From positions 25,960,501 through 26,024,500 of the forward strand of contig NC_080577.1 of assembly GCF_029962835.1 (NCBI RefSeq): DNA of 64,000 nt, given 5' to 3'. The notes under the pieces are model-generated. The model made no database searches and was not told the DNA's origin. It saw only the letters and a list, made by a program, of their open reading frames with translations. The stretch's first letter is position 1. Every line of letters starts with the position of its first letter. A program made the translations under genes and the position numbers. This DNA comes from Magnolia sinica (lineage: Eukaryota > Streptophyta > Magnoliopsida > Magnoliales > Magnoliaceae). Positions 9,035 to 62,522 of this stretch are shown in pieces.

Positions 9035-9079
9035 TCAGAAGTTACATTAACAGACGTCCAAACAGCTCCTCAGCCATAG

Positions 9080-33400: not shown

Positions 33401-35095
33401 GATTTAAGGATGGGCAGCAACGTTCGAGCATCTACTTCTCCCTCTCCTCTATGGAAGGCTATTAGAGCCTCTTTCCCCTTGATTGATGATGGGGTTCAAT
33501 GGTCCGTGGGTTAGGGTGATTGTAATTTCTGGGAGACCAACTGGACGGGTTTGGGTGCTCTCTCCTCAGTTGTGGATTTTCCCATTCCGTCCCATTTGCG
33601 GCACATGAAAGTGGCAGACGTCTTTGGCCCAGCAGGCTCTCTCCCTCCTTGCGCTGTCTTCACGCTCCTCCCCCAAAGTGCAATGGAGGCTATACTCAGG
33701 GGAGGCCATGAAATTTCAAACTCCCTCGATCTCTGTGTCTGGCCTTGGGATGCCTCGGGTTGTTTCACTGTCAAGTCGGCATGGCAGATGAGTAGAACAG
33801 TGTCTCCTCCTTTAAACTGGGCTAGAAATATTTGGAACAATAATCTTCCTCCTAAGATCTTGGTGTTTATTTGGAGGCTGTTAAGGAATGCCATCCCCAT
33901 CGACAATCGAGTGCAGAAGAAAGGGGTCCACCTTGCGTCTAAGTGCGAATGCTGTGTCAGCGCGGCCAGCCCTCATCCGGATGAGGAGACCATTCTCCAC
34001 CTTTTCCTTAACAGCTCGTTTGCGATCCAGATATGGGACCAAATGGGCAGAATCTTTGGCATCCCAAACCTGCAAGCGTCTTCAATGGAAGCAAAGCTTT
34101 ATCAATGGTGGCTGCCCCCTGCTTCAGGAAAATCCTTCTCCTCCCTCCAATCCTTTGTCCCTTGTGTAGTTCTCTGGGAAACGTGGAGGGCTAGAAATGA
34201 GGTGCGATTCGACGCCAAGGCCATGAACTTTGTCTCCTCCTTTGCTCGAGTGAAATGGTGGTTGAAGCATCTTGGTGAGGCTTTAAACATCCCGTATCTG
34301 TCAAAGTCTGCCGACTGTTTGATCCTCGAGCGTCTCAACATCCTCAGCCGCCCCCAGTCTTTCCCTACTCCTTCCGTGGTTAGATGGGCCCCGCCCCCTG
34401 CCCACTGGGTCAAGCTAAATACTGACGGTTCAGCTCAGGGGAACCCTGGTCCTTCTAGTGGTGGCAGCTTATGTAGAGGTGATAATGGTGAATTCCTTTT
34501 TGCTTTTTCGTCCAGCTATGGTGAGGGCTCCAATAACCAAGCTGAAATGAGAGCAATTTGGGACGGTTTGATCTACTGCTTCTCTATGGGTTTTTCGATT
34601 GTGGTTGAATCTGACTCTTCCTTGGTGGTGGATATTCTTAATCATTCTTTTAAGCCGTCTTGAAAATGCTTAAACTGGAGGGAAAAAATCATCAATATGA
34701 AGAAATGGGGTCAGTTGTCTTTCATCCACATTTTTCGAGAAGGAAATGCTCCAGCAGATGGGCTGGCCCGTATGGGTAGCGATTCACAAATCTCGGCTTT
34801 CTTCTCTTCCTCGGCCTCTCTCCCGGCTTCGATTAGAGGCTTGTTGTTTCTTGATAAGGTTGGCCTTAGCTCCTTGAGGCTCCCAAAATCTCCAGCTGGA
34901 CCGGTCCCTGGTTAGCCCTGAGTCGGCGCTACTGCCTCTCTGTTTCCTTTTGTTCTTCTTTTTGCTTTTTTTGCTTACCCCATATGATAGGAGGCTCCCT
35001 CTACTTTTTTTTTTTGTTGGGACCGCCTGAAAGCAGTCTATGTACAGTCCTGTTCAACTTTCTAAATGAAATATGAGTTCTGTCGTTAAAAAAAA
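30408..35095 (+). mobile_element. Near-full-length plant LINE (L1 type, RNase H containing), inactivated
   Basis: A 4.69-kb insertion bounded by the same 15 bp on both sides (30393-30407 and 35096-35110), ending in a short A tract. The ORF2 domains are in order. APE endonuclease, from 30705: IWNARGVGNQ, GGDFNAVL, FTWSNNQ, RLDRVL, SSHAPL. Reverse transcriptase, about 31970-32970: LIPK, RLISLCNVMYKI, NIDLEKAYDRVD, GLRQGDPISP. zf-RVT, about 33500-34100. RNase H, about 34400-34780: NTDGSAQGNPGPSSGG, NQAEMRA, ESDSSLVVD, EGNAPADGLAR. The frame is broken by stops at about 31446, 31605, 31969, 32481, 32565, 33513 and 34661 and by frameshifts near 32483 and 32970. The catalytic FADD box reads FVND. 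ORF1 is nearly absent: only a possible C-terminal stub at 30408-30594. Confidence 0.92.
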
Positions 35096-40469: not shown

Positions 40470-42452
40470 TGTAACACCCTATACTTTGAGTACTCGGGTG
40501 TTACCATTAAACCTTAGGAAGTATTTAGGCATGTAGGAATACAACATATCATCATCAGATAATTCACAAAGAGACCACCTTTGTAAATCATGAACAACTC
40601 TAGAAAATTTCATTAGTTACAACTCTCATCGAGTCAGGTCTAAGATCATTCTAAGAGTCCATTAAAACTCAAGACAAATCCTACTCACCAACCACTTTAT
40701 AAAATAAGAAAATATAAAACAAACTAGTAATTAAATATCTACATCATAGTGTACACATTAACCTAGCAAGATCACAATCCAACCATTAAACTTGACTAAT
40801 GCATTTCGCATTTGTATCGGAACATGTCAAGAAGTCATATTCAAAACAAATCCAAACCACCCGAATTAGATTAGAAAGTTACAGATACCTTGTAATGACC
40901 CAAACCATCACCCTAATGGGCCATTAGACCTTAAAACATTTAAAAATTGGGACCAAATCATTACATCCACCATTCACAATACCTACAACCCTCAACCTAA
41001 TAATACACCACTTATTTCTCACTTAAAATGAAGTTTAGGATATTCAAACTATTAATGTTCAGATTGGAAAGGATCTGACCGTTAAACAGTTAGTAAAGTA
41101 AATGTGTAGTTAGGCTCACAAAAGGAGAAGTATGACCCACCTAAGCATATGAATTGCCTAACAAATGGATGGATGACCTAAAAGGACAAGTAGAATCAAA
41201 TGAACGGTGCAGATTGGCACAGATCACAATGTGGACCCCACGTCTGATCAGTGTGTGTGCACAGATAGTAATTGTAACAACCCATGCCTAATCCTAACTT
41301 AAAACCTAAGAACTAATCTCTTTAAACATTAAACGATTAGATCAGCCCACCTAATAACATAAATCCACCATCAAAAGTGTTTAACTAGGCCCTTCAAGAG
41401 ATCTGATGGTTCATATTTCTCAAATGATCGTGCGGCCCCTTTTTTTAACCGCTACATGTGCACAGACCCATGTACACATGATGTACATGGAACTGACTGT
41501 TGGGTCAAATATAGTCTGACCCGATATATAACTAGAAAAGTGAAATTTCTTACACTTTTCCCGCTGCTCTCAGGTTCAAATGAACACACGTTCATCATCA
41601 CATGATGGCCCACCAACAGGGATCATTGGAGCTCATCACACCAAATCTGACCCGTTCATCAACCTTAGCCAGGAAAATCGACCAAACCCATGGTGAGAAT
41701 CAACAACGATGATCACACCGACCCCCATGAGCAAGGGTCCCGTTCAGTGTGGCGCACGGAACTTCTGATAAGGAGGAGAAAAGCCACGTTGTTCTGCTCT
41801 GTTGGCAGTTTCATTCGCCTCAGTAGCAATCAGAATCACGTCCGCATGCTTTGTAGAAGCTAAGACACCAGTTTTTCGAAAATACCCACTCCCAGCCAAA
41901 AGGCGGAGAGAATATTTCTGTTTTGGGCTAGGAAAATCTCAACTATTTCTTGCCATCTGGAAGGTTCTCTTGAGCAATCCCAGATGTCGGCCTTAGGGCT
42001 CTTTGAAAATCTCGTAGCTAGACGAGAAAATCATGAGAAGCTGACGAGAAAACAGATCGACGCAAAAAGTCCATGTGCGACTAAACTCGATTAATCCACG
42101 GTCCCTCTCTCTTCGTGTAATAGATTCCACAAGCCTCCTGAGTATAATCCAACCCATTTAAACGCCCCCGATCGTCCGATCATCCGATCATTATGAAAAC
42201 ACCATGATCGACCAGTCTTTTCCTCTAAATCGGCCCAAAAACCCACCTCCTTGAAACTATCCCATTTACCAATCCAAAACATCCATCTTGTGGCCCAACT
42301 CATTAGAAAACCCATTTGGGATAATTGTATAGACCCATGCGACTGTTAAACCAAAGTTTAATAGCCCTCAAACTAGCTTTCTCTATCCTTCTCCCGCTAA
42401 TGATACAACTAATCCGTGATTAGTTGTCGGTCCTTCTAGATGTCTAAGAGGG

Positions 42453-42460: not shown

Positions 42461-44179
42461 ACCTTAGGGCAACGAATTCAAAAAGAGAGAAAAGAGGGAA
42501 AAAATATATAAGAAATAAAGAGAGCACTGCTGCTGCTACCACTGGGTGACTCAGTTCGAGTTTGGGCCAGATCTGAGCCGTGTCTCGTGCCTCGAGTCCT
42601 CCTAGCAGAAGAAAAGAAAGAGAGAAAGAATAGAAGAAGAAGATAGAAGATAGAAGAAGGTAGAGTCAAGAGAGGGAGAAAATCTCTCCAGCCAGATTGA
42701 TTTGAACCTGATTCATGTCTGGGTTGCCAAGAACGTGCCGGAGAGGAAGAAGAGTGAGGATGGAAGGGAATGATGTTGCAACACTTTCATTTCAAGTTCG
42801 GGTTGAGTCAGTTGGCGGAGGCTAACTCACTGACTTGTGAGTTGTGGCGAGTTAACTCGTCTAGATATCGAGTCAAGTCTCTGACTCGCTAGCTGGCCAA
42901 GTCCAGACCCTTGCAGGAGAAAGAAGATGATACAGGGACAAGGATGAAGAAAGGAGGAGAGGAAGAAGTGAGAAAGCAAGGGGTTCTCATTGTTTCAAGA
43001 TCAACCCACTGAGTTGACTCAACAACCAACTAAGTTAGCCGAGTCTGGCCTATTACTGGTGCATCCTCGCTCGGCTGTATGAATTATGTTTTGTAAATGG
43101 TGGAGCTATTATTGTTGATTCTGCAAGAATTGAAGAAAACTCGGTTTAAAGTTGGATTGATTCGAAGGATGACCCAATCGCTACACATCCTTGCTAACAA
43201 AGCGAGAATTTGGGTTGATTTCAGTTCGGATAGACTGAGTGTTGCTGCGAAACCCCACTGATTAGACATGTTAAGGAGAGCCGGGCTGGAAACAAGTTGG
43301 GTCGAATCAATCGGGTTCGATTTGGGAGCAAGTGGAGTTGAGGAAGGTGATTGAGGTATGTTAATCTTATACAATTATTGGTGAGTCTAATGCCCTTCAC
43401 ATGCGTGATTAAAGCTCTTTATCTTATAATAGAAATTGAATTGAAGGCTAGTTGAATTAAGAGAGTTAACAACTAAGTGAATCAAACTTGGTTGTAGGAG
43501 CACATTTGATCAAGTTTAATTACAGTTAATTTCTTCTAAAACCTTGCCTAGATTGGAATTGTCCATGTGTAGATTACCCTAAATTCAAGTAAATGCGGAA
43601 ATGAGTTCAAGTTGGAACTAGGTGAAATCGGACTAGTAAAGGAATTGGAGTCTCCAATCATCTAACACAAGATAAGCAGAATTAGGCGATCCGATCTAAA
43701 GGTGAAGATCACCCTTCAAGTTTGTCTACATCTTGATAATTAGCCTAGTTCGTTTATTTCATCTATTGCCTAACATGATACTCGGTGAAATTGATGGTAA
43801 ATGCTAGTTTTTATTTGAAAAATTCTTTATGATGATTGATTGTTGGATTTACATTCGAATACGAATATGCGATGGTCTCAAACATCTCACTTTATATGTG
43901 TATATGCTTTTGATAGTGTGCGTGGCTTGTTTTATCACTTGCGGTTACTTAATGGTATTTTTGGAACCCTTGAACCAGTGGCTATTCTATTAAATAAATT
44001 AAATCAAAGTTGGTTGTGAACCTACCATCTATGGAATTGTTGTGCTTTTATGGCTTTTAGAGTCAATCCCTTTCACCATATCCTAGAATGGACTATTTAC
44101 CTTCTGTGGCTTTGATTGGCTAGTTGCCCTTTGTGGCTTGACGTAATATTTGCCCTATCACTACAAGAAATAGGAATTT

Positions 44180-45030
44180 TACCGACGAAACTTTTACCGA
44201 CGAATTTTTTTTTGTAGGTAAAAAGGACTTTTACCAACGAAAATTATTTTCGTCGGTAAAAGTTTACTTTTAGCGATGAAATTTTAATTTCATAGGTAAA
44301 AGTTTACTTTTATCGACGAACATTGTAATTTCGTAGGTAAAAGTCCTTTTTACCAATGAAAATTTTTGTTGGTAATGGTTATATTGAATTTTTGGAAAAA
44401 AGAATTTCAAAAAATTTACTTTAACCGACGAAATTTAATGTTAGCAGGTAAAAGTGTTTTTCCCGACGGACATAAACCGTCGGCATAAATCCCGTACAAT
44501 GTTGGTACCGACGAAAACTATTGTTGGTGAAAGTGTTTTTCCTAACGGACATGAAACGTCGGCACAAATCCAGTACAATGCTATTACGATGAAAAATAAT
44601 TTCGTTGGTTAATGTATTTTTCCTGACGGACGTCAAACGTCGGCAAAAATCGGGTACAATGTTATTACCGACAAACATGTGTTGGGAAAAGTGTTTTTCC
44701 CGACGGACATGAACCGTCGGCAAAAATCTGGTACGAACTAATATTGCCTTTTACCGACGAATTAAAACCGTCGGAAAAAGGTTCTCGCCAAAGGAAAGAT
44801 TCCTGCCATGACTGAACGCATGACAATTTTGCCGACGAACTAAAACCGTCGGGAAAAGGTTCCCTCCAATGTCCAAAGATTCCTGCCACGATGGAAAGTA
44901 TGAAAGTTTTGCCGATGAAGTAAAACCGTCGGGAAAAGGTTCCCACCACGATGGAAAACACATTTGTAAAATTTTTTCCGACGGCTGATAACCGTCGCTA
45001 ATTGTTTTTACAAAAGCCATCGGTAATAAT
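44180..45030. repeat. Left subterminal repeat array of the outer CACTA
   Basis: Many copies, in both orientations, of a word of the type taccgacgaaa / cgtcggtaaaag. Between 44460 and 45000 it takes the longer form ccgacgg..aaaccgtcgg separated by about 80-120 bp. Subterminal repeats are the transposase binding region of CACTA elements. The open frames here are repeat-derived. Confidence 0.8.
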
Positions 45031-45729
45031 CCTCTATTTTTATGTGTATATATATATAGTTTTTATATCATATGAGTGAAAATTTTTTTTTATATAATTA
45101 AAAAGTAATATTTAAATGATTTGTAATATCACATGAAGAAGAATATTGACAAGTTTAAAATTTTAACAATGTTTGAGAAAAATTTTGAAAATAAAATGAT
45201 GCTTTTGAAGAAAAAAAATTGGCATTTTGAAATTATTGAGAAAAAAATTTGAAATATGAGAAAATATTTTGAAAAATTTCAAATGAAAATTCAGAATTTG
45301 TATTAAATTTTTTTTTTTAGAAATAATTTATAGTAAAAATATTATTTTGTTAAAATGTTTTCAAAATTATGCATTTTGAAAAAGAATGTTATTTTTAAAT
45401 GAAATTGAAATTTATGTTTGCAAAAAAAATTACTAAATTATTAAGCACATCCAGTAATTGTACCTTTAACCATTTTTGGACAATCTAATTAGTTCAGATT
45501 GAAGAGTAAATTACTTCAGATGTTTAAATTAAATTTCACTAAAATTGTTGATCAATCTTGTATGTCCAATATCTTTTTCATATGTAAGCTGGTCGGGAAG
45601 AGTAACTAGTGAAATTGAGTATTGATCAGAAAAATAGTGTGAATGGACCAGACATGTAAAATGGGGCAAATATTTTGGTCAAAATTGTGACCCAATTTTA
45701 TTGACCTTGTGAGAACCTAAGTGTTGATG

Positions 45730-47420
45730 TTAGTAAGTTTTGTGGGCCCCATCATAATGTGTGTCGAACATCAATACCGTGAATTTAATGTGTCCCCTTC
45801 AGGTTATGAGATATGTAAAAAATCATTTGTATATGAAACTCAGGTGGGCTATACCATCTAAAACCATGTGAAGACATCCTAAAAAATATAAAAGAACTTG
45901 GTGGGGCCCACGTGAGTTTTGGATGCAGCTGAAACTTTGTCTGACCCCTCATCCAAGTGGGACACATAATGAGTGGGTTGGATATCTAAATCACATTTAG
46001 GCAAACCCAATATATGATTATGAAAGGAAACCCCTCTCCACTCCATTTAGGTGATTTACTAATTACCCTGAGAAAACTCCATGGGGTTTATCATTAATTA
46101 TTTATTTTATCCACTCCGTTCATCCATGTTAACAGATGATTTAGGGTTTAAAGAACAAAAAGGAAGCATGTCCAAAGCTCAAGTGGACCACATCACAAGA
46201 AATAGTGTGACTGAACCTCTACCATTGAAAAATTTGTGGAGGCCATAGAAGTTTTGGATCAATCCGATGTTTGTGTTTTCTCTTCATTCATATCTTTTTG
46301 ATATTATGAACAGGTTGGATGACAAATAAACATTATTGTGGGCCCAAGGAAGGTATCAACGGTGGAAATCATTATTTGACGTTGTTTCGTGTGGCATGGT
46401 CCACTTGAGTTTTGGATTTACCGAAAATTTAGGATCAACCCACACCGTTCATCCATTTTTCGAGATCATTTTAGAGAATTATCCAAAAAATGAATCATAT
46501 CCAAAGATTAAATGGACTGCATCACAAATAAGGGGAACATATTGGCTACTTCCCCTTACAGCCAATGGCTAGTGGTTGGTGCTGTGTGGGCCCCACCATG
46601 ATGTCTGTGTTTAATCCATGCTGTCCATCTATTTTTAAAGATCATCTTATGGCATGAGACCAAAAATGAGGTATATCCCAATCTGAAATGGACCACATTA
46701 CAGGAAACAATGTTGAATGAGCATAAACTATTAAACACATTTCGGGGGCCATAAAAGTTATGGATCGAGATGATTTTTGTTTTTCCCCTTCATCTAGGCC
46801 TGTATGACCTAATAAACAAATTGGATGCCAAATAAACGATACAGTGGACCTTACAAGGATTTTAATGATGGATATCCAATCACTATTGTTTTCATGTGGT
46901 GTGGTCCACCTGATATTTATATACCTCTCATTTTTGGGCCCCACCATGATGTATGTTTTATATCCACACCTTCCATCCATTTGGAGAGATCATTTTAGGG
47001 CAATATCCAAAGAACGAGTTAAATCCAAAGCTCTAATGAACCCCAACATAAAAAATAGTGGGACAGTAACGCCCACCATTAAAAACTTCTAGAGCTAACA
47101 AAAGTTTGATCTGAAGATGATATTTGTGTTTTCTCATATTTCATGTATTTTTTTTTAAACTTTTGAACAGGTTGGATTTCAAATAAACATTAGGATGGGC
47201 CATAAGATAGTTTCAATGGTGGAAATAACTCTCCCTGCTGTTTTCTGTGGTGGGGTCCACTACGAATTTTTATCTGCCTCATTCTTTGACTCATGGCTTA
47301 AAATGATATCTCAAAATGGATGGACTTATGGTGTGGATATAAAAAATACATTGTAGTGGGCCCACAAAACTTGGTGACGTCAGTGACAGTAGGACGTCCA
47401 GGAGACGCCCTCTGTCAGAG
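45730..47420. repeat. Cluster of dispersed repeats inside the outer CACTA
   Basis: 45730-46020 is the inverse of the unit at 25303-25580. 46050-47420 contains at least two incomplete long-TIR copies. One has a family A left arm (ggctacttccccttacagccaatggc). The other has arms 'gggccccaccatgatgtatg' and 'tacattgtagtgggcccacaaaac'. No gene seen. Confidence 0.55.
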
Positions 47421-48664
47421 ATGGAAGCGGATTGCGCACTGAGTAACTCAGTAGGGTAAGCGTACTGGGTAAACACGTTGGGGTCCACCGTAATTTACAT
47501 ATTTTATCCACTCTGTCCATCCATTTTAACAGGTAATTTGAGGGCTTGATACCAAAAATGAAATATATCAAAGTCTCAAGTGGACCTCACCATGGGAAAC
47601 GGTGAGAATTGAGATTCTACCGTTGAAAATTTCTTGGGGGCTACATATGCTTTGGATCAATATTTTATTTATGTTTTTGCTTCATCCATGTTTGTGAGAT
47701 CTTATGAACAGGTTGGATGATAAATAAACATCACTGTGGCCCCAGGAAGCTTTCAACTGTCACTACAAGAAAATAGGCCTTTACCGGCGGTCAAACCCGC
47801 CGGAAAAGACCCAGAAAACCGCCGGCAAATATTTTGCCCGCAGTTAGCTAACAGCCGGTAAAGCCTCAGTCGGTAAAGGCTTTACCGGCGGTCAGGACCT
47901 TTCCTGACAATTGTGCTGGACGCCGCTAAATTGTCAGCTTTTTATTGAAATGCTATCAAAAGCTACGAATAAAATCCGTACCTAAATATAGCTACGGTTA
48001 TAGTCCGTAGTACAACCGTAGCTATAGATTTAAAAACATATGGCTACGAATTAAATCAGTTGCTATAGAACTCATGGCTACCAATAACCCGTAGCCATAG
48101 AGCAAATCTTTTTCGTCAGCAAGACAAAAAAAAAAAACAGAGAGAGAGAGAAGAAAAGGAAAGGTGACACTCATGTATCCTAGTTTTTTTTTTTTTTCTT
48201 TTTATGCTGCAAATGTTATCATCCTTTTTTTTTACTTTTTATGCTGCGAATGTTATCATCCTTGCTCAGGCCTTCTCTTTCACTGGAGATGTTATCAAAT
48301 GATGCAATGTGGTCGCTTGGACAACTATGCTTAGACCTGAATCCTGGGAGCGGATCGAACCGGTGCGCTTGAGGCTGAAATTCTTCTCATTGCCCTTGTG
48401 TAGAAAACGTCGCAGTGGCCAATGAAGGACCGCCACCAAGCACAATGAATAAAGCTGGTCATGGGCCCAATGAGCATTGAATCCGTTGAAGCCTAGCAAA
48501 TCTGTCTGACCTGCAGCCCACAAAATGAGAGAAGACCATAACTGAAAGGACTAAGAAAGGGAAATGGAAATCATTTAATATATTGAAATGAATAATCATA
48601 TAAATGAATAATCATATTGAAAGGACTAAGACCATCCCGCACTTGAAGGGAACAAGAGAAATCC

Positions 48665-48886
48665 TCACAAGATATAGCAATGAAAGAAACTCTTCAGCTT
48701 CAACATCCGTAGATTTCTGCAAAATGGAGGAAGCCACATCCCTTGGGACCCTTCAAGCACAAAACATCCATTCATGGTGATATCCAAATCCACCACCTTG
48801 CAGTCCAAATTAGGGAACTGATCTTGCAGCTTACACTCCCCTAACCAGAAATCCTTCCAAAACTGAGCCCTCATCCCATTCCCCAC
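48665..48886 (-). pseudogene. LINE fragment (zf-RVT upstream region) inside the inner CACTA
   Basis: Minus-strand peptide MGNGMRAQFWKDFWLGECKL followed by QDQFPNLD resembles the 'G(N/D)G..FW.D.W.G...L...FP.L' segment that follows the reverse transcriptase in plant LINE ORF2. About 70 residues remain. No poly(A) tail or duplication is seen, so it was probably carried along within the captured DNA. Confidence 0.65.
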
Positions 48887-51398
48887 CCAAAAACCAAACG
48901 CTCATCCCATTCCAAATAACCATAGTCTACACCAACAAACTACCATCCCAACTTTGAAGAGTTTGAAGTTCAAAACTGATGTAGAAATAAATACCAAAAC
49001 AAAGATCACTGTTTCTTCACAAATCATTATGAATGCTGCAACTTCCTTAGAAAAAGTGTGTGAAGAAAATTAACGGTCTTTCAACAGGATGATATTCTAG
49101 TCAAGAAAATCAGGAAATATACCAAATAGCAACAGTAAATACACATTGTAATGTTTTGTAAGCAGTGTTCAGAGTATTAGTATCATTATGTATCAATGAC
49201 CGAGGATACAGAAACATGTATCAGGACATTTTAAGAGACACATGTTTAGACATGTAAAAATAAAAATATCGTAAAAGACAACTATATATAATAAGTTTCC
49301 TGCACTTGTCCAACCTAAATCTTCCTTTGTATGTTTATTAAATCTTCGAGGCTAGAGTATGTGTTCGAGTTTTCATAATTTTCCATTTCTAGCGGTAGCT
49401 AATCCTAACAGGTTCTATAAATCTATAATGGTTAAATAAAGGAAGATATATCAAATGGAGCATGGTTTTCACAATCTAATTTCACAAAAACCAGTCCATC
49501 CTTGCATGTGGGCCCCATCAGGCCACAATCTAATTTCACAAATCATGCCAAACCAAGTCAACAAACAAAGTTGGCAGTGAAAATCACCTTGAAACATAAC
49601 AAGGCGAAGATAGTTACACATTCAACTTATCTGCACAAGGGTTAATGAGAAAAGAAAAGTAAATGGAAAAGAAATCAATGAGACTAAAACAGACAAGGGT
49701 GATTAGCATTCAGCTAGGCAAAAGATACAGATATCGTAAAGCTCTAAAAATTACTTTGTAAAATTTCCATGGACTTAGCATTATTTGACATCCTTCCAAG
49801 AATCTGAACACTCCAAAGATAGTGATTGACCAGAAGAAACTGCAGACAAGCTGGGTATGTGACCAATTTCTATTTAATTCTAAATCAGTTTTTATTTTTT
49901 TTCATAAATGAGTGGCCCACCTAATGAGTTGTCGTACTTGTTTTTGTTATGATCACATATGCATTAGAACCATCATCTGGACCGCTCGTCATGAAATCCA
50001 TTGTTTTGAGTACATTGTTATTGCAACATGACATCTTAAAAGACAATTTAAGGGCATGTTTGGATCAAATTTAATTACGATTACTAGTGTAATGAATGGA
50101 TTTTAACTTGAAACTACCAAGCTCTGAAAGCAGGGTAAAAGCTGTTCAAGGGAAAATAAAAGATTAGACAATGGCAAAAATTACCTTTTTCTAGTGATGA
50201 TGATAAATTTTAGAAACACATTGCATAAGAGAAAATAGATACTTGCCTGAACAAGGTAAGTTCATCCACATGATATTTGTAACGAGAGATTTCCTGAGAA
50301 AACAGATAACAAACTGTTATTCATCAAAATTATAAAGAGCAAAGGCTAGGAATGATTAAAAACACTATCAATATCCTCATCCTTAATATCATATAGGCTC
50401 AGAATCTTGCAAAATGCAACACAGAGAAGGCAAATTTGTCAATCTACTTCCATGAAACAACAATTTTCATCTAGCATAGAAAAGTGAAGAAGATAACAAT
50501 GATAAACAACTGCAGTAGAAAGAAGTGCCGAAAAACTTCCACATGATAAGCTAAATGATCAATGCAAGTCATAGTATAGAAACTAACAAAAGAAAACCAA
50601 ATTGAGGAATGGTGCAAAGTTCCTGGACCAAAAAGATCACCAAAAATGAATTTTGCATGGACCAAAAAATTAGAGAAAGAAAAAAAGAAAAAAAAAATGA
50701 GAAAGAGCAAAACAAGCTTACCATCTCTAAAGAGTTACATTCCAACAGGGAAGCACAAGGATAGAAGCAGAATTGCCAAATCAGGTAACCATACTTGACC
50801 TGACCAATTCCAACCGGAGGGTCAGCCCAAGCCCAATCCAGCTTAAAGAGGACCTAACTGCAATTTTACATTCATAAAGAAGTAGCAAACATTAGCAGTT
50901 AAAATTAGCTCACACTCCAAATCACCATTCATTGTGTTTCAGACCACCAAACAATGATTGTTGATTTGTCGGGAAGTTGTCCCGTGCAGTCCGACTTTGC
51001 AATATGGTGAAAACAAGCTGGCTGATTCCAGAATGTGATGAGACATGTTCAGAGTCAGTTCAAAGAACACAAGAGATACAGATATTCTTATAGAATTCTC
51101 TAAATACAAAGTGTCTACTACATAACTTGTAATGATACACATCTGATAAATTACAACTTTTAGCTGTTCAGAAATCCAGATTGTCCAAATTGCTGACCCA
51201 ATTGTAGATGAAGCTATACATCACTGTCAGATCTTGTGGGTTTGGTGGTATCATAGGTCCCCACAAAAGAGAAGAAAACTAAGGGAAAAGCGATAAAGCT
51301 TTTGATTACTTGCTGTCACCAACAAAGTCAGTGAAAACCACATCATCTTCAATTAAAAAACAATCAGTTGGTGGCCAAATATCAAGTTATGAGCTTAC

Positions 51399-51477
51399 CT
51401 AGCAATATCAAGAGAGAATCTCAGAGCTTTAGAAGGCTGTAGCCGTCCTTTCTTTTGAAGGTAATTTGCCAAATCTC
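51399..51477 (-). pseudogene. Captured protein kinase exon (integrin-linked/ankyrin kinase type)
   Basis: 79-bp minus-strand exon. A tttcaag acceptor-like site precedes GAGATTTG and the donor is GCTAG|GTAAGC. It encodes GDLANYLQKKGRLQPSKALR then FSLDIAR, the alpha-D/alpha-E region just after the hinge, typical of plant ILK/ankyrin kinases (consensus GDL..YL..KG.L.P..A..FALDIARG). The catalytic loop, DFG motif and ATP site are not seen nearby, so this is a fragment and not a kinase gene. Upstream and downstream sequence shows no other clear kinase exon. Confidence 0.75.
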
Positions 51478-53541
51478 CTTGAAATCCACCGAAGTACAAG
51501 AATCCATATGGTTTAATGACATACATAAATGTTACCTAGACAATGCGGTCTTTTAAATAATATTTTAAGTGATGCCATATGTATTATCAACATCGATGTA
51601 AATATAGAAATAAATAAGACAGGCCACAACAAGTGCCACCTGTTGTCCAGTAAAATCGCAACCTGTTAACAGTTTGTAATATGGCTGAAATATGTACTGG
51701 CAAAGCCTTATGTAATAGAAGGTGACGAAGAACCTGTGTATATGTTCCAATCTAGGGTGAGCCTTTTTATATCAGACAAAGAAAATTATAAATCTAATCA
51801 TGCAATAAAATAAGCACCTTAAAAATGATAAGAATAACAGTTGTTTGTTCTTCAAGAGCTGCTTTGCTCAACCATGTCGCTAAAATCATCATACCACCTT
51901 TGGTCAAAAACCTGAAAAATAAATTTTAGAATGACTACATTCAGATAAGGGAACCAACTTTCTAACATCATCAATTAAAGCTCAGAAACAAAGGATGTAA
52001 GTACAAGGGAAGAAAATTTCAAGCATAAATGCAGTGGTAAAAGTGTTGGAATTGGCCTTAAAGGTAAATGACTCCATGTACTCTGTTTGGAATTTTGCCC
52101 TTCTATATACTAGTAATATCCTTGTAATTTATTGTCTGATTGTGCATCTGGATTTTTGCATATGCATGTGGATCAAGTCAGCGAAAGTTAGCATCATTTC
52201 CACTATGGTAGCTCACATGTACGACACGTTCAAATGCACATGCATATGACCATATGGGGCCCTTTAGTGATGTGGAAAACCTAATTACACTCAAACCCAA
52301 ACCCACTGGCAATAAAATCAAACCAGAAGATGATAATCCAAACACCAAATTCAAAATTGGATCTGTTTCCTATAGTGTGGTCCGCCTGCGAATTGGATTT
52401 ACTTCATTTTTGGGCTAATACGCTAAAATTATCTGGCAAAACCGATGGACGGAGTAGATTTACAATAAATATATCAAAGTGGGCCCCACAGTAAGGACCG
52501 AACCTAATCCGCTCACTATATCCACCTTTTTTTATGGATATGGGTCCGAATCCGAAAAAGTGCGAGTGTGGGTCATGGTAGAGGAGGACTACCAAAATAA
52601 ATACTCTTGCATATGCAGGCATCTCAAAATGCAGAAAGCACCCCATACACCGAACCGAAATTGCATAAAATAAATAAAATAAAATAAAATAAAAACAGAG
52701 ATTCAACACTAACACTCCGAAATCTCAGTGTATGATGGGTTTGAATCCGAAAAATTAAGATAGGAGAAGGTCATGTCAGAAGTGGACTACCAATGTACAC
52801 AGTCATGCGCATACAAAAACCAAATTACACAAAATACCCCTTACTACAGAACCGAGATTCACGCACATACACCGAAAATTCAGTGTATATATCAGCACCT
52901 TAGATGGAAATGAGGTTTGGATAGCAAGAACGCCGTCTGATGATGAAATCTCAGCTGCAATCTCTCATCGCTCTGCTGTCTTAGATCTGCAAACGGAGAG
53001 AGAGACTGAGAGAGACAGAGATGGCAGAGAGAGGGAGAGTGTCAGTGATGAGTTCGAGAGTGGAGAGGGAGGGAGAGAGAGGTAGAGAGAGATCGAGTGG
53101 AGACGGAGAGGTGCAGAGAGAGAGCGGAGAGTGAGATCAGGCGCAGAGAGAGAGCGAGAGCGAGAGAAATGAGGCGGCCGGTTAGGGCATTTGCGATTTT
53201 GATTAGGGCATTTGTGATTTTAATTAAATAGGAACACTTTGCCTGCAGTCGGCTTTGATTCCCGCGGGCAAAGGGTTCCACCAAGTGTCGGTTCTGCCCT
53301 CCTTTCTTGTAGTGTGTGTAAGTCATTATTCCCACTGTTTCCTGTGGTGTGGTCCACTTGAGCTTTTTGAATACTTCAGTTTTGTATTCAACCACTGAAA
53401 TGAAGTGGAAAAAGTCATGGATGACGTGGATAACCCACACACATTCAAAATAGGCCCAACTGAGTTTACTCAGTACCATAAAACCGTATTGAGTAACACA
53501 ATACGCAATCCGATTTCGTCAGTGACTCCTCGTATCCATGC

Positions 53542-54255
53542 GGATTTCCTGTGAAAGCCTTTCGCAGGAAGTTCATACGCTGGAAACCTAGGTGGGGCCC
53601 ACTTTGATCTTCTTGAGAAATCCATCCCGTTCATACGTTTTTTGAGATCATTTTAGAAAGTGGGATGAAAAATGAGTCAGATCAAATACTCAAGTGGGCT
53701 TAACTAAAGGAAAAGGTGGGTAAGGAAATTCCTACCGTTGAAAACTTTCTGGGGTCGACAGTTATGTTTAGACGCCATCCATATCGTTCTTAACGTCATT
53801 CCTACTGAGATGAATTGAAAACACAAATATTAGAATGATTCAATACTTCTTTGGCCCCACGAATATTTCAACAGTGGATGTTCAATCCTCACATTTTTGG
53901 TAGTGGGCTTAACTAAAGGAAAAGGTGGGTAAGGAAATTCCTACCATTGAAAACTTTACGGGGTCGACAGTTATGTTTAGACGCCATCCATATCGTTCTT
54001 AACGTCATTCCTACTGAGATGAATTGAAAACACAAATATTAGAATGATTCAATACTTCTTTGGCCCCACGAATATTTCAACAGTGGACGTTCAATCCTCA
54101 CATTTTTGGCCCACTTTAGTATTGGATCCGTCTCATTTTTTACCCTATGCCTTAAAATGATCTCAAAAAACGTATGGACGGTATGGATTTCTAACAAAAA
54201 TCACGGTGGGCCCCACTTGGGTTTCCAGCGCAGTAACTGCCTCACAGGAAATCCG
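53542..54255. mobile_element. Long-TIR MITE, family B, enlarged by an internal duplication
   Basis: Left end cggatttcctgtgaaagcct then ggaaacctaggtggggccc. Right end ggtgggccccacttgggttt then cacaggaaatccg. TIRs are about 60 bp. Internally a 209-bp segment is duplicated (see the next entry), which makes the copy larger than its relatives. Confidence 0.7.
53693..54110. repeat. 209-bp tandem duplication inside a MITE
   Basis: Units 53693-53901 and 53902-54110 share almost all bases, starting gtgggcttaactaaagg and running to caatcctcacatttttgg. I count only about four differences (for example ccgttg/ccattg, tggatg/tggacg). Confidence 0.85.
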
Positions 54256-54512
54256 CGTCCCGTATCTCTCTCTGTCTCTATCTTCTCTCTCGGTCCTCTC
54301 TCTCACGCGGCCTCTATCTCTCTCTGTCTCTCTTGGCCCTCTGTCTCTCTCAGCCCTCTCTCTCTCACGCATCCTCTCCCTCCTCTCTCTCTCTCTCTCT
54401 CTCTCCCTCTCTCGCTCTCCTCAGAGCTCGGGAACCCAATTTTCGACGTGGACTCGTGATCAGGGCTCCAACTCAAACTCCTCTCGTTCTCTTCCTCAAA
54501 ACTCGAAAGGTA
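54256..54512 (+). other. CT-rich leader-like segment with splice donor
   Basis: A (CT)n-rich stretch (tctctctctgtctctatc) then ends cctcaaaactcgaaag, followed by gtaaaaaccctaaccc. It resembles the 5' untranslated first exon of a plant gene. It may be the front of a captured gene, but no protein match supports this. Confidence 0.35.
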
Positions 54513-56351
54513 AAAACCCTAACCCTTCATCTAAGTGGGACACATATAGCAGATGGGTTCAATGTCTGAAATACATCTCAGTTGGCCCTACCACACAAAA
54601 CAGCAGGGTTAGAACGTCCACCATTGGAAACTTTGTGAGGCCACATAAGTTATGTATCTGGATGATATTTATTCATACAATTTATCGGAGTGGTGATAAC
54701 CCTATGAACGGTTTGGATTTCATATAAACACCATGATCGGCTCTAGGAAGGTTTCAACAGTGGACTTTTCTATTCCAACTATGTAGTTTCATGTGGCCCA
54801 CCTCAGTTTTAGATGTGCTTGATTTTTAAAGATCTGTCCTATTTTTCTCTTGAAAAACTGATGAATGGAGGGCATGTCTGTGGGCCCACATAGCTTCCAA
54901 CAACAGAGGACACAAGTATATCTCTGTGCCCAGGGCACAGGTAATCCGCTTCTTCCGGGAACAGACGATTCAACTGAGGTTATGGTTTGTTGGAACATGC
55001 ATATACTAGTTCTTACAAACAGGGGAGATTTGAAATTCATAGAATTTACAAATCCCTACCCTAAATCCTCTCTGTTATTATATTGATCTTATATTTTCAT
55101 TAAGAGTATCCTCTCCGTTATATGATTTCGCTAGTGAAAAGTGAAGTAAGAAAAGGAAGATCCTGATAGGTATTATCCTCTAAAAACCTACTATTACTTC
55201 TCTTTGTTTTCCCCCCTCTGCAAGAGGAAGTCATTAAAACCCTTTCTCTATAGCTAGCCTTTTGGGAGAAAGTTGTACTTTATTTATTTATTATTTCTTC
55301 TAGATTTTCAAAATGAGAAATGCTGCTAGGATATTGTTTCATTGATTCAACAAAATCAAGGGGTTTATACTATACTAGCCATCTGAATTAGTGGACCACT
55401 TAGCTCAAAACAAGGCAATGGCCCACATTCAAATAGAAAAACTCATAACTAGATGGTCATAGCCTTTCCATTGTTGCAATGTTTGGTCTATAGTCATGAA
55501 GTGGCCCACCAGATCAACAATGCCAGTAATTGCACCTACTACTCACAACATGCACTTTAGAGAAAGAGCTAAACCAAACTTCTACAATGCAAGCTGCTTA
55601 TAAGCATTTCTATTCCATGATAATAAACCCAGGGAAACCCTACGGTCCTGTTTGGCTGATGACTAAAAATAAGTTCATCACATTTTAGTTAACAATGATT
55701 TTGTATTAGAGATAAGATCTCTATTATACATAATAAGTTTATGTTAATGAGATAAGTAATTATCATTAGCTAAAATGAGATAATTCATCAACATGTTTAC
55801 CACATGGGCCCCACATGCAAAGATTGTCATACATTTGGGTTTGAAGCACTGTTTTGAACAACCTATGATTCGATAATGGGAGGATATCTTGTAGAGTTGA
55901 TTATGATCCCAGTCATAAGATTTTCAGCAAAACATATTGATGCCTTGATGGTCACACACCTGTTTGCCACTTGATTATTATTATTATTATTATTTTATTA
56001 CTGTGGGTAGCATCCAGAGCACGGACATTTCCTGCCATCGGACCATGTTACGTGTGGGGTGCAATAGGTGAACCCTGGTGGTCTTGAGTCGTGATATCGT
56101 TCTTTTTTCCCAATTCTGAGTAAGATGGATTCCTTTTTTTTTTTTTCCATTCTACCAAATCAATTGCTAATATCTTTCTTAAAATAATAGAAGATTGCCT
56201 TTGGTTCTGCGCCTCTTAAGCAGCTAAATATTGTGTGTTGCTAACAACAATTTTTTCAAGCATTTTCCTTCAGATTTTTTGTAAGTTCTTAATTCTTATG
56301 CTGTGATTGAGAATGGATTACTAAATTTTCAATATTTTCTCATGTTTTCAG

Positions 56352-56444
56352 GTTGAAACTAGTAAAGTATTTTTGCGAGATACTAACATTGTCTCTCCAT
56401 ACTCTATTTTGTTATTCGGTGGTCCCATTAACATTCAACACCAG
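56352..56444 (+). pseudogene. Captured DExH-box RNA helicase exon
   Basis: A clean exon of 93 bp (31 codons), flanked by gttttcag and by gtttcc, both usable splice sites. It encodes VETSKVFLRDTNIVSPYSIL then LFGGPINIQHQ, which matches the C-terminal OB-fold region of plant DExH helicases of the DHX29/DHX57-like group (consensus KVFLRDTTIVSPYSLLLFGG..N.QHQ). No helicase motor motifs are nearby. The exon is open, so capture may be recent or neutral decay has missed it. Confidence 0.8.
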
Positions 56445-58474
56445 GTTTCCTATCATAGCCTTCTTTATTCATTACATTGCAAAAGCCTATAGTTGCTTCT
56501 CTTGTTGATTACTTATAAAATAAATATCATGGTTGTTTACATTGTCTATAGGGCAATGGATTTATCTGACTTCAACTTCCATCCATGATGTTTGGTTGGT
56601 TAACTTTTGAAGAATACATACTGTTCAAATGAGTCAAGTATATGATATAGACTTACAATCTCAAATGGATAATTTTCCCATGGTACAATTTTCCCATGTT
56701 TGGTTTTGTTGTTTTCGGTTGTTGAAATATTACATATATGTGTAAGATTTAGGATTCTCCATGCTCCTTTTCTCTTGAATTTTAAAAGAGCCCTTTTGAG
56801 GATTTGAAATCCAGGATTTAGTAGATTCCTTATGATTTGGATGGTTCAGGTTGCATGTAAGAATCTCCATACATTTATGCTATATGGAGGTAGTCTAAGT
56901 GGATGGAAAACTTTCCATGTATCAACTTGCATTTGGATTAGTTGGCCTCCACATCACCCATCTGGACATATCCTATAACAATTCATTTGGGCACATTGTA
57001 GCAAACCTCCCAAGAAGCCTTTTTATAAACTACTTCCTCTCCTCTCTCACGACTTGCAAACCACTTCCTCTCTCCACTTGCCCATTTTCCTAGTATAGAT
57101 ATACACTTATGTTTTAGTTTTTATTAGGTAACTCTTAATTATATAGAAATTTTAAGGTTATTACTCTTCCTTCTAATGTAGTGCTTCTTAACATCAATGA
57201 TGAAGATAGTGGATGTATATCTAACTTAGAGAATTTGGTGTGATATAACTGTCTTATATAGGTTATTTTAGTTACCTAATGCTTCTTCTTCTTTGAATTT
57301 TGTATTCTAAGTTGTAATTTTTTATTTTATAGATGTTGAATTCCTGTAGAATGGGGATTGTTTCTTGTGTGGATGGCCTAAATAGTCTGGAAAATTGGAT
57401 CTCATTTGTTGGTCAATAGTTGTATAGATGGAATATTCCATTGTAGGGACTGCCTGATGAATAGTTTGGAAGATTGGTTCTCATCCACAAAAAAAAATGG
57501 ATGCCTAGCTTGATTATGCTAGAGGAATGTGAGCAAGGAAAAGATGATTAAAAGTTTGTATATATAAGCATATATAGAATTCGTAAAGAGGAATATGTTC
57601 ATCAATTAAGAGGGATTAGGGCAGATGATTGTCCTTCCCCCTTTTTTGGGCTGTAGATATTCTGATTCTTTGGAAGCTTTTAGGCATCTATTGATTGGAT
57701 GAGTTGAACGTGTTGTAATGTGATGAAAAGGAGGATTTTTTTTTTCTTTTTTCATAGATGGACAAGGGGATGACAAGAGAAGCTGGGGATAAGGGAGGGA
57801 TGGGAAGGACCAAAGAGCCATGGGAGGAGGTGAGAATCTCCTCCAACTCTTTTTCCTAGTGTATTCATTATGTCAAAGCACAGTTCTAACTTACCTAAAA
57901 AAATGCTATGACTAGTTTGATATTTGCCACGTTTCAGGACTTGCACATTTGTGTAAGGACAATGGATTTTCATTCTTTTAGAGTTTATTAACTACTCCCA
58001 AGAGCAGTTGAAGTTGGCAAAGCTAGCCCTTCTCTCCTTGTTCAGGTATGTTCATGGCTCTGGAGGTGGATGGCCCCTTGTAGGATGGTTTTGAAGCTTT
58101 TTAAGAGAAGGGTTTTTTTTTTCCTGAATTTCATAGGAATTTTAGAAAGCATCCATGTCATATACAAAATGCTGCATGTGTCAATCGATGTTACAATTTT
58201 CAAGTTATTTTCTCCCTCATCCTTGATATCGTCTACAGTTTCTTCATTCGTCAGAGAGAGATGCTTAGTTACAAACTTGCCACAGAACTTATGTCATCCA
58301 TTTTCTCTTATGCTGCAAGAAACAATTGAATGGAAACCTCCATTTTTTGCTTATTTTTTTTGGGATTGTGTGGCTTCTTAGCCCTTCGGTTTTTTGAGAT
58401 AGTTTGTCTTCTTCTTCTTCTTCTTCTTTTTCTCTTGTAAGGCAGCTATATAATTTCTGTGTGTGCCTTTTTAG

Positions 58475-58753
58475 TTGAGGTTTGGTGTTCTAGAGGCTAG
58501 AGCCTTTGGTGTTTCTCAGTCTAGGAAACGAGCATTCATATGGGCAGCTTCTCCAGAAGAGACACTCCCAGAGTGGCTAGAACTAATGCATATCTTTGCA
58601 GGCCCATAACTGAAAATCACATTACCAGGGGATGTACAATATGCTGCCGTCAGGAGTACAGCTAGAGGGGCACCCTTTCGTGCAATAACTGTGAGAGATA
58701 CAATTGGAGATCTCCCACCTGTTGGAAATGGAGCATCTAAAACAGAGATGGAT
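58475..58753 (+). pseudogene. Captured MET1-type DNA (cytosine-5) methyltransferase exon, with premature stop
   Basis: A 279-bp exon (93 codons), acceptor cctttttag and donor gat|gtgagt. It encodes [20 protein letters not shown] then [14 protein letters not shown]. This contains catalytic-domain motif VIII (Q-x-R-x-R) and the start of the target recognition domain ([20 protein letters not shown], then [15 protein letters not shown] and [10 protein letters not shown]). One TAA at 58607-58609 replaces the glutamate codon of the conserved PELKITL segment. The rest of the 93 codons are open. Full MET1 proteins are about 1500 aa and all other catalytic motifs are missing apart from the next exon piece. 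It is a captured fragment inside the outer CACTA. Confidence 0.88.
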
Positions 58754-59066
58754 GTGAGTTTTCTGATGAAACCTTGTCCTCGGTTGTCTGCACAAAAAAA
58801 AAAATAGTTAAAACTTCTAATGATGGAATGCACTTTGAGATATCCTTTTCACCTTCATTTTACCAATGGTCTATTTTCATTGCTCTACCAAAAGAAAAGG
58901 TACTTACATCACTAATTCCAGTGCTACTAACAGTGATGGATTAAACTAATCAGCCAACAAAATACTCTTTGACAGTACATGTTGGATTTTATATCAGTTT
59001 TCCTCCAACTTTTTAATAAACTCAGATGTTTGTGGTGTATTGTCTTACAATGTCTACAAAATGCAG

Positions 59067-59161
59067 GTGAAACTATATACTGGTCAAATGGTGGATTTGA
59101 TACCTTGGTGCTTGCAATGGAGCAGAGCTCAATAAATGCTTGCATGAATGGAAAGAATCAG
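59067..59161 (+). pseudogene. Second captured MET1 exon fragment
   Basis: Acceptor aaaatgcag, donor aatcag|gtgtat. The start encodes VKLYTGQMVDLIPWCL, matching the MET1 segment ..KLSTGQLVDLIPWCLPNTA. After WCL the frame degenerates and contains stops. In MET1 this segment lies about 50 residues downstream of the previous exon; the intervening coding part is missing. Order and strand agree with an origin from one captured genomic piece. Confidence 0.75.
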
Positions 59162-60799
59162 GTGTATGTGATATGAAAGAAGTGGAGATCAAGTTACCAT
59201 AACATATTTCAAAATGTTCAACTGTTCCTTCTCCACAGTATAGTGTAAGTTGAAAATCTTCAACCCGACCGAACCTGAACTTTACCTTATATGCAGAAAT
59301 CTCTTCATAGTGAAGAATCCATGTCCCAACTTACATGCACAATGGGATTTTGTTCCCCTAATGAGTTTATTCATTGCAGTACTCTTGCTGGTGTGATCAG
59401 TAAGAGCAGTGGGGATGAGGATAAATGCCTTGAAGATCAAGTACGTGATGCCAAGAATAAATTTTGATCCTATCACCTTCATTAGGATGGTCTTCAGACT
59501 CTTCACTTTAAGAATTTGAGTTTTAACCAGGACAATGAAACAGTCCCAAAATGGGTAAAGAAAAAAATGAGGTTCACATCCTCAGTTTCGTAGCACTCAA
59601 AAATGAAATCAAAATGAGTTGGTTGTTGTTTCTATACTATTCTGCCCTAGTGAAATTAGGACAGTTTGATGCATGATGCACATGCACTTAGAGATAGAGA
59701 TTTGTAAACGCGACGTGCATTATCTCATTATGCCATTCAAATTGTGGGGTCCACTGTAGATAGAGGTTATAATCTGAAAATTAGATTGGTTCAACAATCT
59801 TAACCTTGATTTGTGGAAACTTATTTGTTGAACAGTTGGATTTTTTTATTTTTATTTTTCCAAATTTAACCATCTGATACTTGTCCACCAATTGGCTAGT
59901 TTGGTAATCAAATCAAGGTAATTTCTGGATTATGATGCATCTAAGTTGGTACTGATAGATTAATTTGAGTTACTTGTATGCCACATATATCAACCATCAT
60001 ATCTTGCCAAAGTTGTTATGCCTAAAGCTACCTCTGCAGAAATACTTTACAGGTAAATATATCATTTGAATTTTAAAATGCAATTTTGAGGTGAAGTCTC
60101 TTTTTTGCAATGTGCTCTGTTCCAATCCCTCTGTCCAGTCCTAGACTGTCATTGCTGCCTGCTGCAACTTGTTTCTGCAAGTGTCAAATGTGTCTTTGAT
60201 TTTGGCAGCATTAGCCCAATGATGTCATTAGAGCATTTAAGTGTGATTTTCTATTTATGTGGTAGAACTGATTGTGCCAAAAGCTTGCTGGATTGTGACT
60301 GTCATTACCTTTAATTTGGTTGTCTTTAATGGTGTGATGATGGTAGTTGATTTATCTAGGTTGTTCATTAGAAAGATGCAGAAGTGCCGAAAGATGCAAA
60401 GGCCTTGGTTGATGGAAATTTGGTAAACATCTTCAACCAATTGCAGGCTGGTACATTAATGCTTGCTGAATGGGTTAATTTGTAAGACATTTACATAAAA
60501 ATATTCATTTCAAGCTTGGATGCTCTACTTTTGATAATAAAGGTTTTGTTCTATACATTGATCTTCTTATTTCTTCTACTACAGTTATTCTATGATTTCT
60601 TCTTTTACACCTTAAATGTATTTATGTGTGGATGAATGTAATGTGGATAAGATTATTTGTGTATGTATGGATGTGGCTTGTGTTTGGATGGATGTAGTTT
60701 GTGTTTGTTTGGAAAAATGGGAATGTGAATATAATGAAATATATTGTAACAGGTGTATAACAGGAATTTTTGCCTGTTATATGGAAAAAAAAAAGAGAC

Positions 60800-61480
60800 T
60801 TTTACCTACGACTATTCTCGTAGGTAGAAGTTTCATCGACATTTTTACCTGCAGAATTTTTCATAGGTAAAAGGTTCATTCACATTTTTTTACCTACGAA
60901 TCATGTCGTAGGTAAAAGATTCATCAACGGTTTTTTCCTACGTCAAATTTCATAGGTAAAAAGTCTTAACACAATTTCTACCTACGAAAACTTTTGTAGG
61001 TATAAGTCTTAACACTGTTTGTACCTACACACAATTTCATTGGTAAAAGTATTAATACAGTTATTAGTTACGACAGCATTTGTAGGTAAAAGCCTTAACA
61101 TAGTTTCTACTTACGAAAACTTTCGTAGGGAAAAGTTTTAACAAAGTTTGTAGCTACGAAAACATTCGTGGGTAAAAGTCTTAACACCGTTTGTACCTAC
61201 GAAAAATTTTGTAGGTAAAAGTTTTAACAAAGTTTTTAGCAACGAAAATGTTCGTAGGTAAAAGTCTTAACACAATGTTTACCTACGAAAAATATTGTAG
61301 GTACAAGTCTTAACAAAGTTTTTAATTTCATAGGTAAAAGTCTTACCATTGCCGACGATGACATTTTTCGTTGGTAAAAGTCTTTAGCCACGGCTTTTTA
61401 CCAACGAAATTTTTCATAGGTAAAACGTTTTACCTACGAAATCATATCATTTACCTATGAATTGTTTCGTAGGTAAAAGT
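60800..61480. repeat. Right subterminal repeat array of the outer CACTA
   Basis: About a dozen units of roughly 60 bp of the form tacctacgaaa..ttcgtaggtaaaagtcttaaca, in tandem and internally inverted. The core is cctacgaa. In the left array the corresponding core is ccgacgaa. Confidence 0.85.
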
Positions 61481-62522
61481 GGAATTTCTTATAGTGTATG
61501 TGGCTTTAAAGAACCATCTTCATATAACCTTGCGATGATAAGTCCCACTTGTAGAACTATAATTGGCCACTAGTTGAGTTGGTTACCTTAAAACACCTTA
61601 TTTGTTAGTCTCATGAGTCAGGGATGTTAGAATGGGACACTATGCCTGAGCTATCAGCTTATGCTGGGTGATAAACCCCCCATAGTAACCTTTGGACTTT
61701 TTTTAAATGATCGTTTGAAATTGAAATAATAATAGTCGGGCTAATCATGCATTTTCATGGCATGCGGTCTTTTTTGGATGGCTATTCCTTGGGCGTACAT
61801 TTAAGTACTTTTCTAGGTGGCTAGTTCTCCTTGGGTGACTTCATTGCATAGTCTTTTCCAGGTGGCTAGTTCTCCTTGGGCGTACCTTTAAGTACTTTTC
61901 TGGGTCGATAGTTCTCCTTGGGCGACTTTTTACCAGCTGGATGTGCATCCCCAGGTCTGTGAGCATGTACATGCATCCATGCATTTAAACAAGATTATCT
62001 TGTATGATTTATTTAATGAATGCGTATTTGATGAATCTTATCTGAGTCCCATGATAATCATTAAGTAATATTTGTTATATACTGTCTCTAATAACTATGC
62101 TTAATTATCTTGATGATGCGATAAATCTTTGGGGTTATACCTCACTAAATAGCCATTGATGCTATCAAACCGTACTCAATATGCAGGTGACTTAAATAAC
62201 GCGCATGCTGACGTTCATATGAAATAAGAGGAGCTAGATGATCTCGCGACTCTCTATTTCTGACTTCATTTGTATTAAATTGTACTGTCATGTTTTGTAA
62301 AACGTTAAGACTTTAGTTTGTATAAGTTTATGGGCAACCACTCGAATATTTAATTTTGTATATTTGGACTCCCTCATATACTTGATTGCTTATATTCTGC
62401 TAGATTACTACTCTGATATAAAGAAAAAAAATGTACGTGAAATTTGAGTGTTTTCAAAAGTTAACGCTTGGATTTTTGGAACACAAGTAGTGTACTCAGG
62501 TTTCGGGAATCGGGGTGTTACA

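Follow-up and report, generated by a model that had tools for sequence, protein, structure and literature searches.

The window, by which we mean the whole stretch of 64,000 nucleotides that was analysed (C5:25960501-26024500), belongs to a 1.84-Gb assembly of 127 contigs, which was the genome searched. It contains a non-autonomous CACTA element, the outer CACTA, whose 17.3 kb are made up of 11.8 kb of its own sequence and a second, nested CACTA insert of 5.55 kb (Table 1). The outer element is flanked by a TSD (TAT at 44156-44158 and again at 61497-61499) and has inverted termini of the CACTA type, CACTACAAGAAA at 44159 and CACTATAAGAAA at 61496 on the minus strand, both adjoined by subterminal repeats of the type TTTTACC.ACGAAA. 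The site of the nested element is empty in all four other copies of the outer element that were tested. A six-frame Pfam search of positions 45000-47760, 47761-53314 and 53315-60801 found no transposase domain at E<=0.1, and it is because of this result in the stretches scanned that the outer CACTA is classed as non-autonomous.

Elsewhere in the window, positions 10551-15156 hold exons of a multi-pass transporter-like gene (by eye of the drug/metabolite transporter type) with a 74% relative on C11. LINE-like frames, which by eye comprise an endonuclease, a reverse transcriptase and an RNase H-like part, lie at 30702-34663, and broken frames of a copia-type polyprotein, again by eye, at 38883-40513 on the minus strand.

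Inside the outer CACTA, positions 58418-59115 are genomic MET1 DNA with introns, about 93% identical to the MET1 gene of the same genome. Judged from its sequence, the homology of this fragment to MET1 is certain. Since it contains introns, its source was genomic DNA and not mRNA. The one whole exon in it presumably encodes motif VIII. Its translation, 92 aa with X at the stop, matches residues 1239-1329 of a solved MET1 chain of 1507 aa (E 3e-37), which we take for the Arabidopsis protein on the strength of the title of PMC12474915. The second exon piece alone gave three matches among solved structures, none of them MET1, and its assignment rests on DNA identity to the genome's own MET1 gene (93.1% over 58885-59115). 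Compared with MET1, 176 bp are deleted from the captured piece, with the joint at 8866/9043 and a 2-bp overlap, and most of the middle exon is gone; the 15-nt remnant of this exon was missed in the first reading. Positions in the MET1 gene region count along the gene stretch at C2:24.40 Mb, whose exons were read without a complete gene model.

Table 1. Coordinates of the outer CACTA and its parts in the window.
Feature	Position	Strand	Remarks
Outer CACTA, non-autonomous	44159-61496		inverted termini CACTACAAGAAATAGG / CACTATAAGAAATTCC, TSD, alignment with other copies
Left TIR and subterminal repeats of outer CACTA	44159-44950		tandem ACTTTTACCGACGAAA-type units
Inner nested CACTA	47761-53314		TSD TGT at 47758-47760 and TGT at 53315-53317
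MET1 segment 1 (one whole exon with the 3' part of the intron before it and the 5' part of the intron after it)	58418-58886	+	92.8% over 470 columns, MET1 gene-region 8398-8866
MET1 exon, 93 codons	58475-58753	+	preceding AG acceptor and following GTGAGT donor both intact
Nonsense codon TAA	58607-58609	+	GAA in MET1
Middle MET1 exon, remnant of 15 nt with its donor site	58885-58899	+	sits at the 176-bp deletion joint
MET1 intron	58900-59066	+	
Next MET1 exon, first 49 nt	59067-59115	+	VKLYTGQMVDLIPWCL; end of MET1 homology
Further interior of outer CACTA, no assigned source	59116-60795	+	common to other copies
Right subterminal 43-bp repeats and TIR of outer CACTA	60796-61496		

These results bear out most of an earlier note on this DNA, which had described two MET1 exon pieces, one with a nonsense codon, in sense orientation inside a CACTA transposon. 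The element is confirmed by its TIRs, subterminal repeats and TSD, and the two pieces by the protein match and the DNA identities. The nonsense codon is there as well: TAA replaces GAA in 4 of the 12 loci that have letters at this place, the window included (window, C5:85.25, C1:65.14 and C2:132.5), and the other eight have GAA. As to 'sense', both pieces do lie on the plus strand in the order of the gene, but the stretches scanned yielded no transposase that would give the CACTA an orientation. The limits proposed, 58475-59161, came close, although the MET1-derived stretch, introns included, is 58418-59115.

The host MET1 gene, whose product maintains the silencing of such transposons, lies at C2:24402613-24412699. 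Its large exons are open, they encode the expected MET1 sequence and the N-terminal exon is present; the gene is apparently full-length, to judge by its reading frames. A Pack-CACTA has its donor gene elsewhere in the genome, and this MET1 gene is such a donor. When its N-terminal exon was used as a query the genome gave five matches, namely the gene itself, two relatives on C4 with 47-50% identity and two short pieces of 88-89% on C6 and C4. The two C4 relatives, at C4:21984541-21985083 and C4:22005703-22006251, are neighbouring frames that look like divergent MET1-like genes.

Copies of the element and their cargo

A DNA search with 58475-59161 returned at least 51 rows, the best 40 of 63 candidates being scored. 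The deletion joint is crossed by no fewer than 18 loci, spread over seven contigs (C1, C2, C3, C5, C8, C12 and C15), and all 18 show the same 176-bp gap against MET1. The earlier note would have given up its claim had identity to MET1 been low, or had there been a single dead copy with a long-decayed fragment; we find 93% identity and at least 18 loci.

Longer stretches were read for 10 of the 17 loci besides the window. Copies at C5:85.25, C1:65.14, C15:15.55 and C15:15.48 Mb can be aligned to the outer element; identity is mostly 92-96% and falls to near 89% on the left side of the two C15 copies. For C5:85.25 and C1:65.14 the alignment covers 501 bp each of the outermost left 2 kb. The C1:65.14 copy has an extra insertion of about 3 kb, and the left end at C5:85.25 reads CGCTA, one base off CACTA. 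The MET1 exon carries frameshifts in the C15:15.48 and C12 copies. The TSDs are ATT/ATT at C5:85.25, CTT/CTT at C1:65.14 and TAT/TAT in the C15 pair. Because the flanks of the two C15 copies coincide over 165 bp and 355 bp, the pair represents one insertion that was later duplicated, and was counted once. This leaves four independent insertions with matching 3-bp TSDs (window, C5:85.25, C1:65.14 and the C15 pair), from which it follows that the element moved after it had captured MET1. In a Pack-CACTA the host fragment moves with the element, and here the 93% MET1 fragment is found in copies with different TSDs. A query with positions 60200-60795 (best 40 of 1423 candidates) hit at least 10 places outside the list of MET1 matches (best 40 of 63), and much of the wider element family may be without MET1.

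Six other fetched copies, all six of those concerned, have 154 bp more MET1 on the 5' side, from gene-region position 8244. Pfam found further host-gene pieces in the C12 copy, an adaptor-complex medium-subunit exon (PF00928, E 2.6e-8, L049 9368-9526) and an RGP piece (PF03214, E 9e-6, L049 6443-6541), and found no transposase over L049 6000-10000 and L050 1-5000. The RGP-bearing stretch aligns in the C2:132.5 copy also. Twelve places have the adaptor piece: all six of the longer copies that were fetched, four loci at 90-94%, C6:8.33 Mb at 92% and a relative on C18 at 82%. On the basis of its sequence, C6:8.33 Mb is perhaps the donor gene of this piece. The four loci (C3:92.9, C17:64.2, C1:58.7 and C15:23.2 Mb) are outside the list of MET1 matches (best 40 of 63) and are perhaps elements that predate the capture of MET1. 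On the minus strand of the C12 locus, L050 4458-4574 is a fragment of a disease-resistance winged-helix domain (PF23559, E 2.9e-8), in a stretch absent from the C2:132.5 copy.

In a MET1-rooted tree of 22 rows, each with 420 or more positions filled and with six partial C8 copies left out, the window-type copies form a single clade (support 97) nested among the longer copies. They therefore look like a deletion derivative of these. Among the six longer copies, which lie on C12, at C2:132.5 and C3:82.9 Mb and at C8:7.28, 7.59 and 49.3 Mb, a plausible CACTA terminus was seen on both sides only at C8:49.3 Mb, where the flanking bases are TTA and AGA and no matching TSD was found.

Other MET1-bearing repeats

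MET1 pieces are also found in two other repeat families. The first of these comprises at least nine loci, eight on C9 (27.6-34.9 and 61.8 Mb) and one on C7 (60.2 Mb), which span up to MET1 gene-region 8279-9316, keep the middle MET1 exon in 8 of 9 cases and in some instances resemble each other over 3.4 kb. These loci form a separate clade in the tree (support 100). Comparison of three of them with the C12 copy and the window found no common flank apart from simple repeats and one 81-bp match of 72%, outside the core of the element. The MET1 limits of the CACTA family (8244-9273) differ from those of this C9/C7 family (8279-9316) by no more than about 45 bp, so an old common capture is possible.

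The other family carries a MET1 piece that runs from 9135-9180 to a fixed right end, 9396 in 13 loci and 9371 in 5, that is, a 262-bp or 237-bp piece with 90-96% identity to MET1, at no fewer than 18 loci (best 40 of 55 candidates). The copies have their flanks in common as well. With 351 bp of one of them as query (best 40 of 345 candidates), 12 of the 18 match end to end, 5 at 14/15-292 and 1 at 90-351; a nineteenth place, C8:19.41 Mb, matches 2-171 of the query and brings the count to at least 19. Two copies that were read (C12:43466100-43466780 and C5:85078370-85079050) are 93.7% identical over 490 bp. Their left flank includes GGCCCTGTTTGG, reminiscent of a TIR; the stretch read contained no inverted partner for it. 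The 262-bp family agrees with the CACTA family, and differs from MET1, at three intron sites, as would be expected if the two had one origin or if MET1 itself had changed.

MET1 sequence further upstream, used as a query, gave 8 rows including the gene itself, with two longer pieces, one at C4:61.26 Mb and one, split in two, at C6:13.5 Mb, besides four short pieces of 80-142 bp. A 705-bp exon taken from the transporter-like gene of the window served as control and gave 2 matches, itself and the 74% relative; this is a single control and a thin one. MET1-like pieces at C17:50373635, C1:103545597 and C3:18316251 do not belong, as far as can be seen, to any of the three families.

Age, constraint and methylation mark

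Measured against the majority state of the MET1 fragment, the 18 loci diverge by 1.9-4.5% each. Substitution rates of 1.5 to 7e-9 per site and year are generally assumed, at which a divergence of 2-3% corresponds roughly to 3-20 million years, an estimate that is inflated by the decay of CG and CHG sites. We compared the MET1 part with its flanks in the C5:85.25, C15:15.55 and C15:15.48 copies, leaving out C1:65.14. Identity of the window to these copies is 97.4% in the MET1 part and 97.0 and 97.5% in the flanks for C5:85.25, 96.6% against 96.7 and 96.6% for C15:15.55, and 96.1% against 96.5 and 96.6% for C15:15.48, and is lower in the subterminal arrays (92.1-93.7%). The MET1 part is thus kept no better than its flanks in all three, and we reject selection for it. 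The family-private changes that precede amplification, taken over the whole exon from the majority state, number 0 at codon position 1, 0 at position 2 and 2 at position 3, out of 93 each. To us this pattern suggests that amplification followed soon after the capture, or that the donor was then still under constraint; it would also fit an early constraint within the element, and to that extent counts against the reading of the MET1 DNA as a passenger.

Over positions 55800-60795 of five copies, private transitions are found in 18 of 54 CG columns, 57 of 241 CHG, 56 of 1422 CHH and 41 of 3085 A/T columns, with private counts lowered by the shared history of the two C15 copies. CG and CHG both exceed CHH (Fisher p 1e-11 and 3e-21). 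The MET1 fragment itself, across the 18 loci, has transitions in 16 of 150 CG cells, 69 of 946 CHG, 56 of 3140 CHH and 61 of 6724 A/T cells. Fast transition decay at CG and CHG sites is the expected mark of CG plus CHG methylation in plants. That decay is fastest at these sites therefore points to past methylation of the copies, and it is the past and not the present state on which a mutation spectrum reports. The MET1-bearing copies were thus targets of the same machinery whose gene they carry.

Passenger DNA or an influence on MET1

We consider it probable, and hold with good confidence, that the outer CACTA belongs to a non-autonomous, multi-gene Pack-CACTA family in which the MET1 DNA is a silenced passenger. 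An ancestral element would have captured about 1 kb of genomic MET1 DNA, from mid-exon to mid-exon and with introns, and carried it beside adaptor-complex and RGP fragments, the order of uptake being one that we infer. The 176 bp inside the captured piece, whose loss all joint-crossing copies have in common, would then have gone, and a CACTA transposase supplied in trans would have copied the element into its several TSD-flanked sites. The window copy would stand for a shorter subfamily, from which the adaptor piece and the beginning of the MET1 piece have disappeared. The passenger would drift as its flanks do and encode nothing intact, with copies that are presumably silenced today by CG and CHG methylation and have no effect on MET1. 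The mechanism, Pack-CACTA capture followed by amplification, is ordinary; the cargo is unusual. If the copies are silent passengers, they offer a clean, multi-step case of CACTA gene capture, in which the donor gene lies in the same genome and can be dated.

The earlier note had gone further and suggested that a transposon bearing MET1 sequence could act on the host gene. The capture stands, at 93% identity and at least 18 loci; the effect finds no such backing, in view of the weak inverted repeats and folds, the ordinary conservation and the methylation-type decay. An action of siRNAs on MET1 is nonetheless possible on sequence grounds: the window fragment has 91 exact 21-mers and 76 exact 24-mers in common with the MET1 exons, and the 18 loci together cover 223 of 644 21-mers and 196 of 641 24-mers. 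In such a scheme transcripts of the copies would feed siRNA or phased RNA, lower MET1, loosen CG methylation and so help the element to spread, as in the miR820-OsDRM2 case of rice, a direct precedent. The exact matches and the amplification to 18 or more loci argue for this scheme, but we judge it unlikely, given that there is no inverted arrangement of MET1 sequence and no unusual fold-back, that the fragment is conserved no better than its flanks and that the copies carry the methylation mark. In 57800-60795 a search for inverted repeats turned up 10 pairs, 16-40 nt long, 73-88% complementary and mostly far apart. When 220-nt windows were folded (34 for each stretch, with 30 shuffles apiece), the best z values were -1.65 for the window copy and -1.20 for the C12 copy, and -2.86 for a control stretch of the same element. 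These inverted-repeat and fold scans found no fold-back precursor like that of miR820 in either copy, and with weak inverted pairs and no fold beyond the control we reject a miR820-like hairpin. Bidirectional transcription and Pol IV would be other conceivable sources of siRNAs. That three MET1-bearing repeat families exist does exceed what a plain passenger would lead one to expect, unless MET1 is a capture hotspot. One could accordingly imagine MET1 as a target of repeated capture, in which overlapping pieces of one 1.15-kb catalytic stretch, carried by all three families beside the one apparently intact gene, make siRNAs that lower MET1, to the gain of several unrelated elements; we regard this as quite improbable.

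It is very doubtful, too, that the retained splice sites join the MET1 exon to neighbouring captured exons in a chimeric transcript or short protein with a new or dominant-negative role. The exon has kept its AG acceptor and GT donor, the adaptor-complex exon upstream of MET1 in the C12 copy has by eye a donor-like end, and soybean Tgm-Express offers a precedent. Against this stand the TAA at 58607 in 4 of the 12 covering loci, the frameshifts at C15:15.48 and in the C12 copy, and conservation that does not rise above the flanks. Nor do we give any real credence to the view that there was no capture at all and that a degraded MET1 duplicate was later hit by a CACTA and other elements. The many MET1-like fragments in the genome would suit it, but the same fragment with the same joint lies in the same place in CACTA copies that occupy unrelated sites with TSDs of their own. 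With different TSDs, one joint and, among those tested, the C15 pair as the only segmental duplicate, we reject this explanation in favour of capture by the element.

In the literature searched, which takes in few subscription papers or preprints, we found no report of a transposon that captured MET1. The Pack-CACTA elements of Arabidopsis and other plants (PMC8903248, PMC13317346) resemble the present one in being non-autonomous, with CACTACAA-type ends, no transposase found and pieces of more than one host gene; the present element differs in that its cargo comes from a silencing gene, that it measures about 11.8 kb without the nested element and that it has long arrays of subterminal repeats. 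Soybean Tgm-Express (PMC1947982) is likewise a CACTA that mobilised gene fragments, with alternative splicing of the fragments reported there, in contrast to the present case, which is known from sequence. As described in PMC13317346, donor pieces captured by maize Helitrons, Pack-MULEs and Sireviruses may yield siRNAs that match the donor, which would be a point of likeness; unlike the present element those belong to other superfamilies, and siRNA data exist for them.

The closest parallel is a rice CACTA that carries pre-miR820, which derives from OsDRM2 and resembles it into the second exon and third intron, with five copies in Nipponbare and at least 18 in a BB genome, according to Nosaka et al. 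2012 (PMC3459959). If small RNAs from the present copies do reach MET1, they would make a further case of a CACTA acting on a methyltransferase after miR820/OsDRM2, here on the enzyme of CG maintenance; three amplified MET1 families and perfect 21-mers make the question directly testable with ordinary data. The two systems differ in that the rice cargo stems from the de novo enzyme OsDRM2 and the present one from MET1, known here from DNA and with no fold-back precursor found. In both, DNA of a host DNA methyltransferase gene, exon together with intron, has been multiplied by transposition.
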